NCBI GenBank assembly: GCA_029862185.1
Contig: JAOTXX010000036.1
Span: 1 to 41,073, forward strand
Length of the DNA stretch: 41,073 nt
Direction: 5' to 3'
DNA from: Myxococcales bacterium
GTDB taxonomy: Bacteria; Myxococcota_A; Polyangia; Polyangiales; Houyiibacteriaceae
Positions within the stretch are counted from its first letter, which is position 1; each line of letters starts with the position of its first letter. Below the pieces are notes generated by a model. It was not told the origin of the DNA and searched no databases. It was given only the letters and a program-made list of their open reading frames with translations. This document shows, one piece after another, positions 16,938 through 23,319 of this stretch. The position numbers and the translations under genes were made by a program.

Positions 16938-17828
16938 CTACCCGCGAGGGTGATACCGCTCGTGCATCTTGTGCAGGTGGTCCCCGGTGACGTGGGTGTA
17001 GATCTGGGTGGTCGAAATGTCCGCGTGCCCGAGCATCGTCTGCACCGAGCGGAGGTCCGCGCCCCCGTCGAGCAGGTGGGTCGCAAAGGAGTGTCGGAGC
17101 TTGTGCGGCGAGATCGGCTTGGTGATGCCGGCCGCTGTCGCGTAGCGCTTGACCAGCCTCCAAAACCCTTGGCGCGTCATCGCCTTCCCGCGCGCTGTCA
17201 CGAAGCAGGCACGGCTCGCGGGTCGAGCCCATTTCGGCCTCACCGTCGCCAGGTACTCGACCAGCGCCGCTCGTGCGTGTGCGCCGATGGGAACGATGCG
17301 TCGCTTGTTGCCTTTGCCCAGAGCCGAAATGAAGCCTTCCTCGAGATTCAAGTCGCCGAGATCGAGCTCGGTGAGCTCGGTCACGCGGAGGCCGGCGGCG
17401 TACATCGTGTGCAGCATCGCCCGATCGCGAATCCTGTTCGGCTTCGTCCCGCTCGGCGCATCCAAGAGCCGAACAACCTCGTCGCGATTGAGGAGGGCTG
17501 GTAGCTTGCGCAAGAGGCGCGGCCCTTCGAGGAGCTCCGTCGGGTCGAGCGGCTCGCGCCCTTCCTGAACGAGGAACCGAAAGAAGCCGCGAAGAGAGCT
17601 AAGCGCCCTGGCCTGCGTCCGTGCACTCAGGCCGGCCTGTGACAGTGTGACGAGGTGGGCAGCGACTCGTGCTTCGTCGACTTGCCCGAGCGCGCCTTCA
17701 TCGTCGAGCCAAGCGACGAAGCGGGTCAGATCATGGGCGTAGGCATCCACCGTGTGCACCGAGAGTCCCCGTTCCACGCGCAAGTGCTGAATGTAGTCAT
17801 CCAACGCACCGTCAAATGCGACGGACAT
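16938..17828 (-). CDS. xerD: Tyrosine recombinase XerD/XerC
   Basis: Chromosome-dimer-resolving site-specific recombinase. From the ATG at 17828 it has 296 residues (an ATG at 17843 would add five), matching XerC/XerD length. The N-terminal SAM-like core-binding domain (about 5-95) precedes the catalytic domain with all active-site residues: R148 (AAGLRVTEL), K172 (LGKGNKRR), H242 and R245 (PHKLRHSFATHLL), H268 (LGHADISTTQ) and Y277 (QIYTHV). No inverted repeats, attachment sites or phage genes flank it, so I read it as the housekeeping enzyme. XerD versus XerC cannot be settled without the second paralog; the sequence leans to XerD. Confidence 0.9.
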   Translation of the reverse strand: MSVAFDGALDDYIQHLRVERGLSVHTVDAYAHDLTRFVAWLDDEGALGQVDEARVAAHLVTLSQAGLSARTQARALSSLRGFFRFLVQEGREPLDPTELLEGPRLLRKLPALLNRDEVVRLLDAPSGTKPNRIRDRAMLHTMYAAGLRVTELTELDLGDLNLEEGFISALGKGNKRRIVPIGAHARAALVEYLATVRPKWARPASRACFVTARGKAMTRQGFWRLVKRYATAAGITKPISPHKLRHSFATHLLDGGADLRSVQTMLGHADISTTQIYTHVTGDHLHKMHERYHPRG

Positions 17829-17950
17829 ACCACTCGCTACCATATTCCGATCTTCGAGCCCATTTTGTGTACGTCCAGACCCGACTTGTGGGCGCCCGTT
17901 TCATTGATGCAGATCGGGCCGCGTGGTACCAATTGAGATGGGGATTAGTT

Positions 17951-18001
17951 ATGAAGCAGGACTCCACTTACTCTTCACTTGGGCGGTCGAACCATGAGTA
18001 G
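17951..18001 (+). CDS. Possible 16-codon leader ORF overlapping the amidotransferase-like gene
   Basis: A short frame, MKQDSTYSSLGRSNHE, begins with an ATG seven bases after a GGGG Shine-Dalgarno-like run. It ends in a TAG that overlaps the first codons of the next gene (its ATG is 17994-17996). The downstream gene has a poor ribosome-binding site, so translation of this leader could deliver ribosomes to it. The peptide resembles nothing I know and may be chance. Confidence 0.3.
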   Translation: MKQDSTYSSLGRSNHE

Positions 18002-18806
18002 GCTCATCGGCTACGTCGCGAATCGAGCCGACCGAATGCGCGATGCCCTTTACCAAGAGCGGGCCGTTCTTCGCCACGAGACTGCAGCTGAAGACGCGAG
18101 CGGTTGGGGCATCGGCTTTTACCACGGAGACGAGGTGCTCCATAAGAAGCGCCCAACTCGTGCCGGAGAGCGAGTCGATTGGCAGAACATCGCAGGCGAC
18201 GTTCGTTCGGACTGCGCTGTGTTGCATATGCGCCAACCAACGGTCGGAGACTTCCGCGCAGAGAACGCGCATCCGTTCCGCATGCGCAGCTGGCTGTTTG
18301 CACATCAGGGCACCATCGAGGGCTTTGATGCGATCCGAGACAACCTTTCCGAGATGATCCCTGACTTCCTTCGACGCAACATCCGTGGGCAGACCGACAG
18401 CGAGTTCCTCTTCCACACGGTGCTTACCATGCTTCACGACGCAGGCCAGCTCGACAACCCCGATGTCAACGAGGCGCAAACTCTTCCGGCGATCAGTGCC
18501 GCCGTCACTCTGATCGAACGGCTCGCCGCCGAAGTCGGAAGCACCGACAGCAGCCTCAGTTTCATTCTGACGAACGGCCGCTCGATGTACGCGCTAAGGC
18601 ACGGCGCGGCGATGATCTACGTTGAACGCCAGGGCCTCCACGACCCGCCGCAGGATTACACGCCCCCGCCGGTGGGAAGCACGCAACTGCGGTACGTTAT
18701 GGTGGTGGGCGGCGTCAATGAAGACCAGGTCGGCTACGAAACGATTCCTGAACGCTCCGTCGCGGTCATCGACCGCGGTTTGGACGTGAGGGTTCACGCC
18801 CTTTGA
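17994..18806 (+). CDS. Class II glutamine amidotransferase-like protein lacking Cys2
   Basis: A 270-residue member of the GATase type 2 (Ntn-hydrolase) group, closest in pattern to YafJ/EgtC-like proteins. The N-terminal pattern RLIGYVANRADRMRDALY, SGWGIGFYHGDEVLHKKRP, LHMRQPTVGDFRAENAHPF and LFAHQGTIEGFD (about 97-108) match the family's core, including the Arg-Gln and Asn-His-Pro-Phe contacts for the glutamine pocket. The catalytic nucleophile should be Cys2 (MCR-). Here codon 2 is AGT, Ser. After Met removal the protein would carry an N-terminal Ser. It could be a Ser Ntn-hydrolase or an inactive binding protein. It is divergent from xerD and 13 bases before cutA. Confidence 0.75.
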   Translation: MSRLIGYVANRADRMRDALYQERAVLRHETAAEDASGWGIGFYHGDEVLHKKRPTRAGERVDWQNIAGDVRSDCAVLHMRQPTVGDFRAENAHPFRMRSWLFAHQGTIEGFDAIRDNLSEMIPDFLRRNIRGQTDSEFLFHTVLTMLHDAGQLDNPDVNEAQTLPAISAAVTLIERLAAEVGSTDSSLSFILTNGRSMYALRHGAAMIYVERQGLHDPPQDYTPPPVGSTQLRYVMVVGGVNEDQVGYETIPERSVAVIDRGLDVRVHAL

Positions 18807-18819
18807 GCCCCCGCGATCC

Positions 18820-19146
18820 GTGAGCGCCGACGACGAGCTAGTTCTGGTGCTGTGTACGGTGCCCGACGAGGCGGCTGCGAGAAAGCTGGCCACAGGGCTC
18901 GTCGATGCGCGGCTGGCAGCCTGCGTGAACGCAATTCCCGGGCTGACGTCGGTCTATCGCTGGCAGGGCAATGTCGAGATCGACTCCGAGATTCAACTGC
19001 TGATCAAGACGCGCAGGGGCCGATTCGACGAGCTGGCGGCGTGGATCAAAGCGAATCATCCGTACGACGTGCCGGAGATCATTGCGGTGGCTGCAGAACG
19101 GGTGAGCGACGACTACCTAGCCTGGGTACTGAAGCAGACCAGCTAG
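18820..19146 (+). CDS. cutA: Divalent-cation tolerance protein CutA
   Basis: Small trimeric PII-like fold protein of 108 residues. The family pattern is clear: LVLCTVPDEAAARKLA, the AACVNAIPGLTSVYRWQGNVE segment in two parts, EIQLLIKTRRGRFDEL and HPYDVPEIIAV with the conserved His-Pro-Tyr-Pro-type turn. The exact function of CutA is unsettled; copper tolerance in E. coli and signalling-like ligand binding have been proposed. It starts at a GTG 13 bases after the amidotransferase-like gene and is probably co-transcribed with it. Confidence 0.93.
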   Translation: MSADDELVLVLCTVPDEAAARKLATGLVDARLAACVNAIPGLTSVYRWQGNVEIDSEIQLLIKTRRGRFDELAAWIKANHPYDVPEIIAVAAERVSDDYLAWVLKQTS

Positions 19147-21833: not shown

Positions 21834-22397
21834 ATGGCAGACACCTCCGACATCAAGAAAGGCTTCAAGATGCTCCTCGACGGCGTTCCGTTCGCGGTCG
21901 TGGATCACCAGTTTGTGAAGCCGGGCAAGGGACAGGCCTTCGTTCGCACCCGCATCAAGAACATGATGACCGGCGCGGTGATCGACCGAACGTTCAAGAG
22001 CGGCGAGAAGCTGGACAAGGCGGACACTGAAGAGCGGACGATGCAGTACCTCTACCCCGAGGGCGACACGCGGGTGTTCATGGACACTCGGAGCTACGAG
22101 CAACTGGCTCTGACGAACGAGCAGCTCGGCGAGAACGTGCACTACCTTCTCGATGGGACCGAAGTCGACGTCATGCTGTTCGAGGGTCGCCCGATCGGCG
22201 TCACGCCACCGACGTTCGTCGAGCTCCTGGTCACCGAGACGGAGCCTGGGTTCAAGGGCGACACGAGCAGCAACACCACGAAGCCCGCGACGCTCGAAAC
22301 GGGTCTGCAGGTGAACGTGCCGTTGTTCGTAAACGCGGGCGATCGGCTGAAGGTCGACACGCGGACCGGCTCCTACGTGGAACGCGTCAAAGGCTGA
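21834..22397 (+). CDS. efp: Translation elongation factor P
   Basis: Relieves ribosome stalling at polyproline stretches. It has 187 residues in three beta-barrel domains. The tip loop VKPGKGQAF carries K32, equivalent to the E. coli K34 that receives beta-lysine. The epmA gene directly follows, which supports lysylation of this residue. The C-terminal domain holds the typical KPATLETGLQVNVPLFVNAGD segment. The TonB-family protein in this window ends in a polyproline run of the kind EF-P helps translate. Confidence 0.96.
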   Translation: MADTSDIKKGFKMLLDGVPFAVVDHQFVKPGKGQAFVRTRIKNMMTGAVIDRTFKSGEKLDKADTEERTMQYLYPEGDTRVFMDTRSYEQLALTNEQLGENVHYLLDGTEVDVMLFEGRPIGVTPPTFVELLVTETEPGFKGDTSSNTTKPATLETGLQVNVPLFVNAGDRLKVDTRTGSYVERVKG

Positions 22398-22404
22398 GCG
22401 CCGA

Positions 22405-23319
22405 GTGCCGGAGCCCGCTGATGCCGCCATGGTTCAGGTACTGGAGCTCCGCGCCACCCTGCTTTCGGCGATCCGACGCTTCTTCGCAGACCGCGACTTC
22501 ATCGAAGTAGAGACCCCGGCCATCGTGCCCTCCCCGGGGCTCGACGTGCATCTGTCGGCATTCGAGGTGCGAGACCCCAGAGGCAAGCGCGCCGGATGGC
22601 TCGCGACGAGCCCAGAATACCAGATGAAGCGACTCCTGAGCGCGGGCGCGAAGCGAATCTTTCAAGTCTGTCGAAGTTACCGCGGAGAGGAACGAGGCAG
22701 CCACCACGAACGCGAGTTCACGATGCTCGAGTGGTATCGCGCGGACGCTACGTCCGACGACCTGATCGGTGACACCGAAGAGCTGGTCGCATTCGTCGCC
22801 GGCTCGCTGGACCAACCCGCCCCCGAAGTTCAGCCACCTTGGCAGCGGATGACGGTTGACGAAGCGCTGCAGTTCCACGCGAACCTGACGCTGGCCTCGT
22901 TGCTCGACGACGAGGAGCGGTTCTTTCGCGTCTGGGCCGAAGAGGTGCAACCGCGTCTTGGCGCCGAGCGGCCGATCGTGGTGACGGATTGGCCGGCGTC
23001 GATGGCGTCGCTTGCGAAGCTCAAGCCCAATGGGATGGCGGACCGGTTCGAGGCGTTCTTCCAAGGTGTGGAGCTTTGCAATGGCTTTGGCGAGCTCACC
23101 GACGCCACCGAACAACGGCGACGATTCGAGCGAGATCAGGCAGAGCGCAAAGCGGACGGTCTGCCGGTCTATCCCATCGATGAACGCTTCTTGGCTGACC
23201 TCGAACGGGGCATGCCCGAAAGCGGTGGCAACGCGCTTGGCGTGGACCGATTGCTGATGCTGCTGCTGGGCGCATCCTCGATTCAGGCAGTCATGCCGTT
23301 TCCCGACGAGCAGCTCTAG
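22405..23319 (+). CDS. epmA: EF-P lysyltransferase EpmA (PoxA/GenX)
   Basis: Class II lysyl-tRNA synthetase paralog that attaches (R)-beta-lysine to EF-P. Its 304 residues include only the catalytic core; the N-terminal tRNA anticodon domain of LysRS is absent, as in EpmA. Motif 2 is RIFQVCRSYRGEERG...HEREFTMLEWY, and motif 3 is GNALGVDRLLMLLLG near the C-terminus. FQGVELCNGFGELTD marks the lysine pocket. It starts at a GTG 7 bases after efp (an ATG at 22429 is an alternative). The mutase EpmB is not in the window. Confidence 0.94.
   Translation: MPEPADAAMVQVLELRATLLSAIRRFFADRDFIEVETPAIVPSPGLDVHLSAFEVRDPRGKRAGWLATSPEYQMKRLLSAGAKRIFQVCRSYRGEERGSHHEREFTMLEWYRADATSDDLIGDTEELVAFVAGSLDQPAPEVQPPWQRMTVDEALQFHANLTLASLLDDEERFFRVWAEEVQPRLGAERPIVVTDWPASMASLAKLKPNGMADRFEAFFQGVELCNGFGELTDATEQRRRFERDQAERKADGLPVYPIDERFLADLERGMPESGGNALGVDRLLMLLLGASSIQAVMPFPDEQL

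Follow-up and report, generated by a model that had tools for sequence, protein, structure and literature searches.

A Myxococcota family with the class II amidotransferase fold that lacks the catalytic cysteine and is under purifying selection

We analysed a stretch of 41,073 nucleotides (hereafter, the window) from a Myxococcales bacterium (assembly GCA_029862185.1, contig JAOTXX010000036.1). The gene of interest (17994..18806, forward strand) encodes a Cys-less protein of 270 amino acids with a class II amidotransferase fold, as indicated by its open reading frame, Pfam profiles, a structural model, and structure matches. The interval 17994-18340 given by the first-pass annotation covers only the N-terminal part of it. 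The translation begins MSRLIGYVANRADRM, i.e., the gene starts ATG-AGT (Met-Ser), which confirms that codon 2 (AGT, 17997..17999, forward strand) specifies Ser at the position of the catalytic Cys2. The start codon is backed by the orthologues, whose alignment begins at the same Met, and in five loci (L044, L117, L130, L132, L166) the open frame itself begins with this Met. An upstream start error hiding an N-terminal Cys is described for archaeal PurF in PMC3261824. We rejected a hidden upstream start with a Cys for the window gene: no Cys is encoded from the in-frame stop upstream of it up to residue 12, and the upstream stretch is not conserved.

The gene is flanked by a divergent gene for an XerC-type tyrosine recombinase (16938..17843, reverse strand; Pfam match on the L104 homologue, synteny seen across the genus and in some further families) and by a CutA1 gene (18820..19146, forward strand; Pfam and synteny) that starts 13 bases past its stop. 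In this genus, cutA is probably co-transcribed with it. Among the genus loci (L069-L082), xerC is divergent and 127-198 bases upstream in 14/14. For 11 of these loci, 250 bases or more of DNA are available on the downstream side, and cutA follows after 15-29 bases in 10 of them; it was not found in L082. Across the best 80 of 200 relatives, a divergent xerC within 700 bases is present at 19 loci and a cutA on the same strand within 700 bases downstream at 14. The block sucD-sucC-xerC-focal-cutA-patatin-TPR-efp-epmA is partly retained in other lineages (e.g., L092, L098, L135), and Sorangium-like loci have a patatin gene about 750-830 bases downstream of the focal gene; these arrangements support vertical descent. 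We clustered the neighbouring ORFs of 74 loci, recovering the focal gene in 65 of them, and scanned 20 neighbour proteins with Pfam. The neighbours vary by lineage (xerC, cutA, patatin, class II tRNA synthetase, SPOR, haem-oxygenase-like, FHA/sigma-54), are mostly housekeeping genes, and showed no functional partner in this search. The gene directly upstream on the same strand in Sorangium-like loci (L115:5003-6361) encodes a class II (D/K/N) tRNA synthetase.

The window protein matches GATase_4 (PF13230; 74 bits for a cut-off of 23) and GATase_6 (PF13522; 40.1 bits for a cut-off of 27), and GATase profiles are its only Pfam matches along the 270 residues. With NCBIfam EgtC (TIGR03442) it scores 67.9 bits, below the equivalog cut-off of 218.65, and is thus not classed as EgtC. 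An AlphaFold2 model built on an alignment of 38 sequences (A1) has a mean pLDDT of 90.2 and a pTM of 0.90, and its top Foldseek matches are EgtC chains. In VIA-align, it superposes best on 3mdn (chain 3mdn_C; Z 24.4, rmsd 2.6, 207 aligned residues), followed by EgtC (Z 22.4), EgtC C2A with its natural substrate (4zfl, Z 22.0), and the GlmS C1A glutamate complex (3ooj, Z 21.9). The profile matches, together with the Ntn-hydrolase sandwich fold of the predicted model, place the protein by descent in the class II glutamine amidotransferase family (GATase_4). It shares with the stand-alone enzymes of the EgtC/YafJ type (4zfj, 4zfk, 4zfl, 3mdn, 1te5) the fold, the length, the Arg/Thr/Asp positions, and the single-domain organisation, but differs from them in lacking Cys2 and the Asn of HNG and in having conserved basic motifs of its own.

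Most related genomes (55/57) contain some match at E ≤ 0.001, Cys2 paralogues included. Within the genus, 15 of 19 genomes have an orthologue; the other four, which are 66-87% complete, have only a distant match (E of about 1e-22 to 1e-24) that corresponds to the Cys2 paralogue of other genomes. Cys2 in all close relatives would have pointed to an error or a recent inactivation, and this was checked and did not occur. Ser2 is conserved in all 15 genus members, and relatives have Gly, Ala, Ser, Thr, or Pro at the position: 46 orthologues (L001-L046) have 18 Ser, 15 Gly, 12 Ala, and 1 Pro, and the best 80 of 200 relatives, a sample from named genomes that partly overlaps the former, have 42 Ala, 21 Ser, 15 Gly, and 2 Thr. 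Pooling the two sets, the latter limited to the best 80 of 200, gives 92 distinct orthologues (49 Ala, 23 Ser, 17 Gly, 2 Thr, 1 Pro) with no Cys2 among them. Sorangium cellulosum So ce26, So ceGT47, and So0157-2 (L110, L114, L115) are among the Cys-less orthologues. Small residues at position 2 are all compatible with removal of the initiator Met, and the Ser2 of this genus is best explained as one among several interchangeable small residues. The Ser2 codon is AGT in 15/15 genus members despite widely differing synonymous sites, and this invariance may reflect a translation-start constraint.

Separate paralogues with Cys2, starting MCRLFGF, MCRLLG, or similar (L047-L063, L065-L068), occur in related genomes, and the window's own genome encodes one of the MCRLFGF type (L056). 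Considering all fetched loci except L179, in which a contig end cuts the N-terminus and which was left out of both tally and tree, there are 155 distinct sequences: 34 with Cys2 and 121 Cys-less (52 Ala, 38 Ser, 18 Gly, 4 Thr, 3 Pro, 3 Met, 1 Glu, 1 Arg, 1 Tyr). This tally and the 105-row trees described below include L064 (64 bits, Glu at residue 2), which is too divergent to be called an orthologue. In L181, L190, and L207, from other Myxococcota families, the protein begins MKLFACMCNQ or MRLFACMCNQ, and the initiator Met itself occupies the place of the nucleophile. The sampling covers Myxococcota plus one MAG labelled Planctomycetaceae: 79 of the best 80 of 200 loci carry titles of Myxococcota, of the older Deltaproteobacteria or Proteobacteria labels, or of uncultured bacteria. 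The sole non-Myxococcota label in that set is L108 (JABWBL010000218.1, Planctomycetaceae MAG_29); its protein resembles the Sorangium type, and the contig may be misbinned or transferred.

We then placed these sequences in a phylum-wide tree. Of 377 genomes searched, 204 had a hit at E ≤ 1e-30, a count to which Cys2 paralogues contribute, and 40 further regions were fetched to add intermediate sequences. A set of 204 sequences was thinned to 105 rows, 78 Cys-less and 27 with Cys2; L015 and L082, which contain runs of N, were omitted. A single branch (SH-aLRT 99) separates all Cys-less from all Cys2 rows, and the split persists without residues 1-3 and 104-106. It is also found with a bootstrap/SH-aLRT of 100/100, in all 200 bootstrap trees, in a tree of 79 rows (62 Cys-less, 17 Cys2) that was built with the catalytic columns removed and that leaves out 4 rows on long branches and 22 from dense regions. 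Given this single-branch split in an unrooted tree, the Cys was either lost once or gained once in the sample. Class II amidotransferases generally use a Cys nucleophile, which makes loss far likelier than gain. No Cys2 has been regained in the family in our sample, and the best reading is that the family is ancient and vertically inherited in Myxococcota.

To follow the glutamine pocket, we split the Cys-less rows into group A (24 Polyangiales rows, including the window), group B (23 rows of the MARL type), and 31 other, more distant rows. Residue 2 is Gly in 16, Ala in 5, and Ser in 3 rows of group A; Ala in 22 and Pro in 1 of group B; and Ser in 20, Thr in 4, Pro in 2, Met in 2, and Glu, Arg, or Tyr in 1 each of the distant rows, compared with Cys in 27/27 Cys2 rows. 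The first-pass annotation had described the remainder of the pocket signature as preserved. This holds for RQP(T) and NAHPF and fails for AHQGT, since all 27 Cys2 rows have HNG there. The window protein has Gln105 (18306..18308, forward strand) where HNG has its oxyanion-hole Asn; position 105 is Asn in 4/24 rows of group A, 0/23 of group B, and 2/31 of the distant rows, compared with 27/27 Cys2 rows. Within the genus it is Gln in 12/15 and Glu in 3/15, and a carboxylate at this position would disfavour an oxyanion.

The residues predicted to anchor the amino-acid end of glutamine fare differently in the alignment. Carrying over the assignments from GlmS, we take the Arg and Thr to hold the alpha-carboxylate of glutamine and the Asp its alpha-amino group. 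In the window protein, the first two align with R80 and T83 of R80-Q81-P82-T83 (18231..18242, forward strand) and the third with Asp135 of TDSE (18396..18398, forward strand); the same correspondence of the Arg, Thr, HNG, and TDSE positions is seen in the alignment to 3mdn. Arg80 is kept in 23/24 rows of group A, 20/23 of group B, and 21/31 distant rows; Thr83 in 19/24 (plus 3 Ser), 17/23 (plus 2 Ser), and 10/31; and Asp135 in 24/24, 22/23, and 17/31; all three are invariant in the 27 Cys2 rows. The window protein thus has the predicted anchor R80/T83/D135 and lacks both Cys2 and the oxyanion-hole Asn. Judging from these alignments, groups A and B appear to retain most of the predicted anchor and not the chemistry, and the distant rows loosen both. 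Since Thr83 is incompletely kept and the anchors decay in the distant rows, ligand binding may not be general in the family. A distant Cys-less subgroup of the MSQVFGYLCSD type (L194, L195, L196, L198), from one other family code of the phylum, has no match to the usual N-x-H-P-F pattern.

The gene is under strong purifying selection. Nei-Gojobori dN/dS ranges from 0.035 to 0.126 over 19 genus pairs, the larger dS values being near saturation, and from 0.035 to 0.086 in the six pairs with dS < 0.5, a pattern of substitutions by which the gene is evidently kept for a function. In addition, group A conserves, at ≥85%, more than 40 positions that most Cys2 rows do not share, including N10-R11-x-D13, H50-K51-x-R53-P54, R96, R98, F125, R131, and R261. 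The N10-R11-x-D13 motif (18021..18032, forward strand) is conserved in the Polyangiales Cys-less groups A and B and not in Cys2 enzymes; H50-K51-K52-R53-P54 (18141..18155, forward strand) is a family-specific basic motif, absent from Cys2 enzymes, whose counterpart in group B is of the L-R-R-R-P type. Conservation of such family-specific positions argues for a new constraint rather than for decay.

These results point to an old Myxococcota family that would have kept the amidotransferase fold, given up glutamine hydrolysis, and turned to ligand binding, a combined reading that we regard as probable by a modest measure. Its parts differ in strength: from the residues lost, the glutaminase function has very likely gone, and from those kept, the odds that a glutamine-like ligand is still bound are about even or slightly better. 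An ancestor would have lost the Cys2 nucleophile and, largely, the oxyanion-hole Asn. Through Arg80, Thr83, and Asp135, the pocket might still bind an alpha-amino acid of the glutamine-like or gamma-glutamyl type, holding it uncut, as does the EgtC C2A mutant crystallised with its substrate. Binding could then serve as a signal or regulate a partner, and the new conserved basic residues (R11, K51, R53, R96, R98, R131) could contact a second part of the ligand or form a partner surface. The window protein is thus probably a ligand-binding or regulatory protein, in line with the earlier suggestion of a ligand-binding relic selected to stay folded, which fits the low dN/dS, the conserved predicted ligand residues, and the confident fold. 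More tentatively, a gamma-glutamyl amidohydrolase, by losing its nucleophile and oxyanion hole once, long ago, may have become a sensory receptor that is widespread in Myxococcota, is inherited vertically, and captures metabolites of the glutamine-like or gamma-glutamyl kind uncut; we give this narrower version less than an even chance. If true, it would be a natural counterpart of C2A substrate-trap mutants. Cys-to-Ala laboratory mutants of the same fold (EgtC C2A, GlmS C1A) have been crystallised with ligand, according to their PDB titles, and Ala is the commonest residue 2 among the 92 orthologues (which include the best 80 of 200 relatives).

Alternatively, the protein could be a non-catalytic partner or scaffold subunit that pairs with an active enzyme and for which the pocket is dispensable. 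The Cys2 paralogue in the window's own genome and the decay of the anchor residues in distant Cys-less rows would fit this, as does PurF', a Cys-less paralogue (Ala or Val) retained beside an active PurF (PMC3261824). However, the Polyangiales groups show hardly any variation at the anchor Arg and Asp, and beyond xerC and cutA in the window's type of neighbourhood there is no recurrent adjacent partner gene. We consider such a role rather unlikely. Another possibility is a pocket rebuilt for a reaction independent of residue 2, with D13, H50, K51, R53, R96, R98, R131, and H148-D149 as candidate residues. The many group A positions unshared by most Cys2 enzymes are what such a change would leave, but H50 and K51 are not common to group B, and R11, H50, and K51 are not common to the distant rows. 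Since several of the new positions are restricted in this way, the family as a whole has no one new catalytic set in common, and we hold the proposal, residues included, to be unlikely.

The switched Ser nucleophile proposed by the first-pass annotation does not fit the family. Ntn hydrolases other than class II amidotransferases use Ser or Thr, Ser2 is fixed in the genus, and Ser or Thr is commonest at residue 2 of the distant Cys-less rows (24 of 31). Yet Ser2 is fixed only in this genus and occurs in a scattered way beyond it: most close relatives have Gly or Ala, incapable as nucleophiles, and a conserved N-terminal Ser was not found in group A (3/24), group B (0/23), or the distinct orthologues (23/92). 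The same genus also lacks the oxyanion Asn, with Gln or Glu in its place. In E. coli PurF, Ser cannot replace Cys, as changing the N-terminal Cys to Ala or Ser leaves no detectable glutamine-dependent activity (PMC3261824). A working Ser2 nucleophile in this genus is therefore very improbable. That the Ser is a sequencing error, or marks an ordinary enzyme only recently inactivated, has a negligible probability; one base change from Cys to Ser would suffice, but nothing was found in favour of this reading, and it is ruled out by the 92 Cys-less orthologues (including the best 80 of 200 relatives) and the purifying selection.

The favoured reading, an amidotransferase fold reused for ligand binding, has practical consequences. 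The family matches the Pfam amidotransferase model, and glutaminase activity is thus likely mispredicted for this gene across Polyangiales. One ancient loss of catalysis, followed by long purifying selection, with an active-type Cys2 paralogue in the same genome, makes the family a natural experiment in which to test to what new use an N-terminal nucleophile fold is put after losing its nucleophile.

Class II amidotransferase paralogues without the Cys are already known as a kind, with precedents in PurF' and in the beta-lactam synthetase domain. We take the N-terminal domain of beta-lactam and carbapenam synthetases (1jgt, 1q15) to be a class II amidotransferase fold without glutaminase function; that domain is presumably fused to the synthetase, whereas the window protein stands alone and aligns to the two with Z of only 12.0 and 8.9. 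PurF' is a Cys-less PurF paralogue of Crenarchaeota, where its pairing with PurF has been proposed (PMC3261824). The resemblance lies in a Cys-less class II amidotransferase paralogue held across a whole lineage beside an active one. In contrast, PurF' is PurF-like and near purine genes, and the window protein is a 270-aa single domain from a bacterial phylum, with xerC and cutA as neighbouring genes. In the open PMC literature, no paper was found that by title or abstract describes this Myxococcota family or its setting, and the consulted parts of PMC13060819 and PMC9140057 hold no precedent for it. The window gene was also not assigned to PurF', its neighbours being sucC, xerC, cutA, patatin, and efp rather than purine genes; purM/purN-like ORFs, named from their translations, lie about 17-19 kb downstream in the window and are not adjacent. 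At 21834-23319 of the window (forward strand), an epmA-like lysyl-tRNA synthetase paralogue comes immediately after efp, both named from translation, an adjacency that suggests EF-P lysylation in this lineage.
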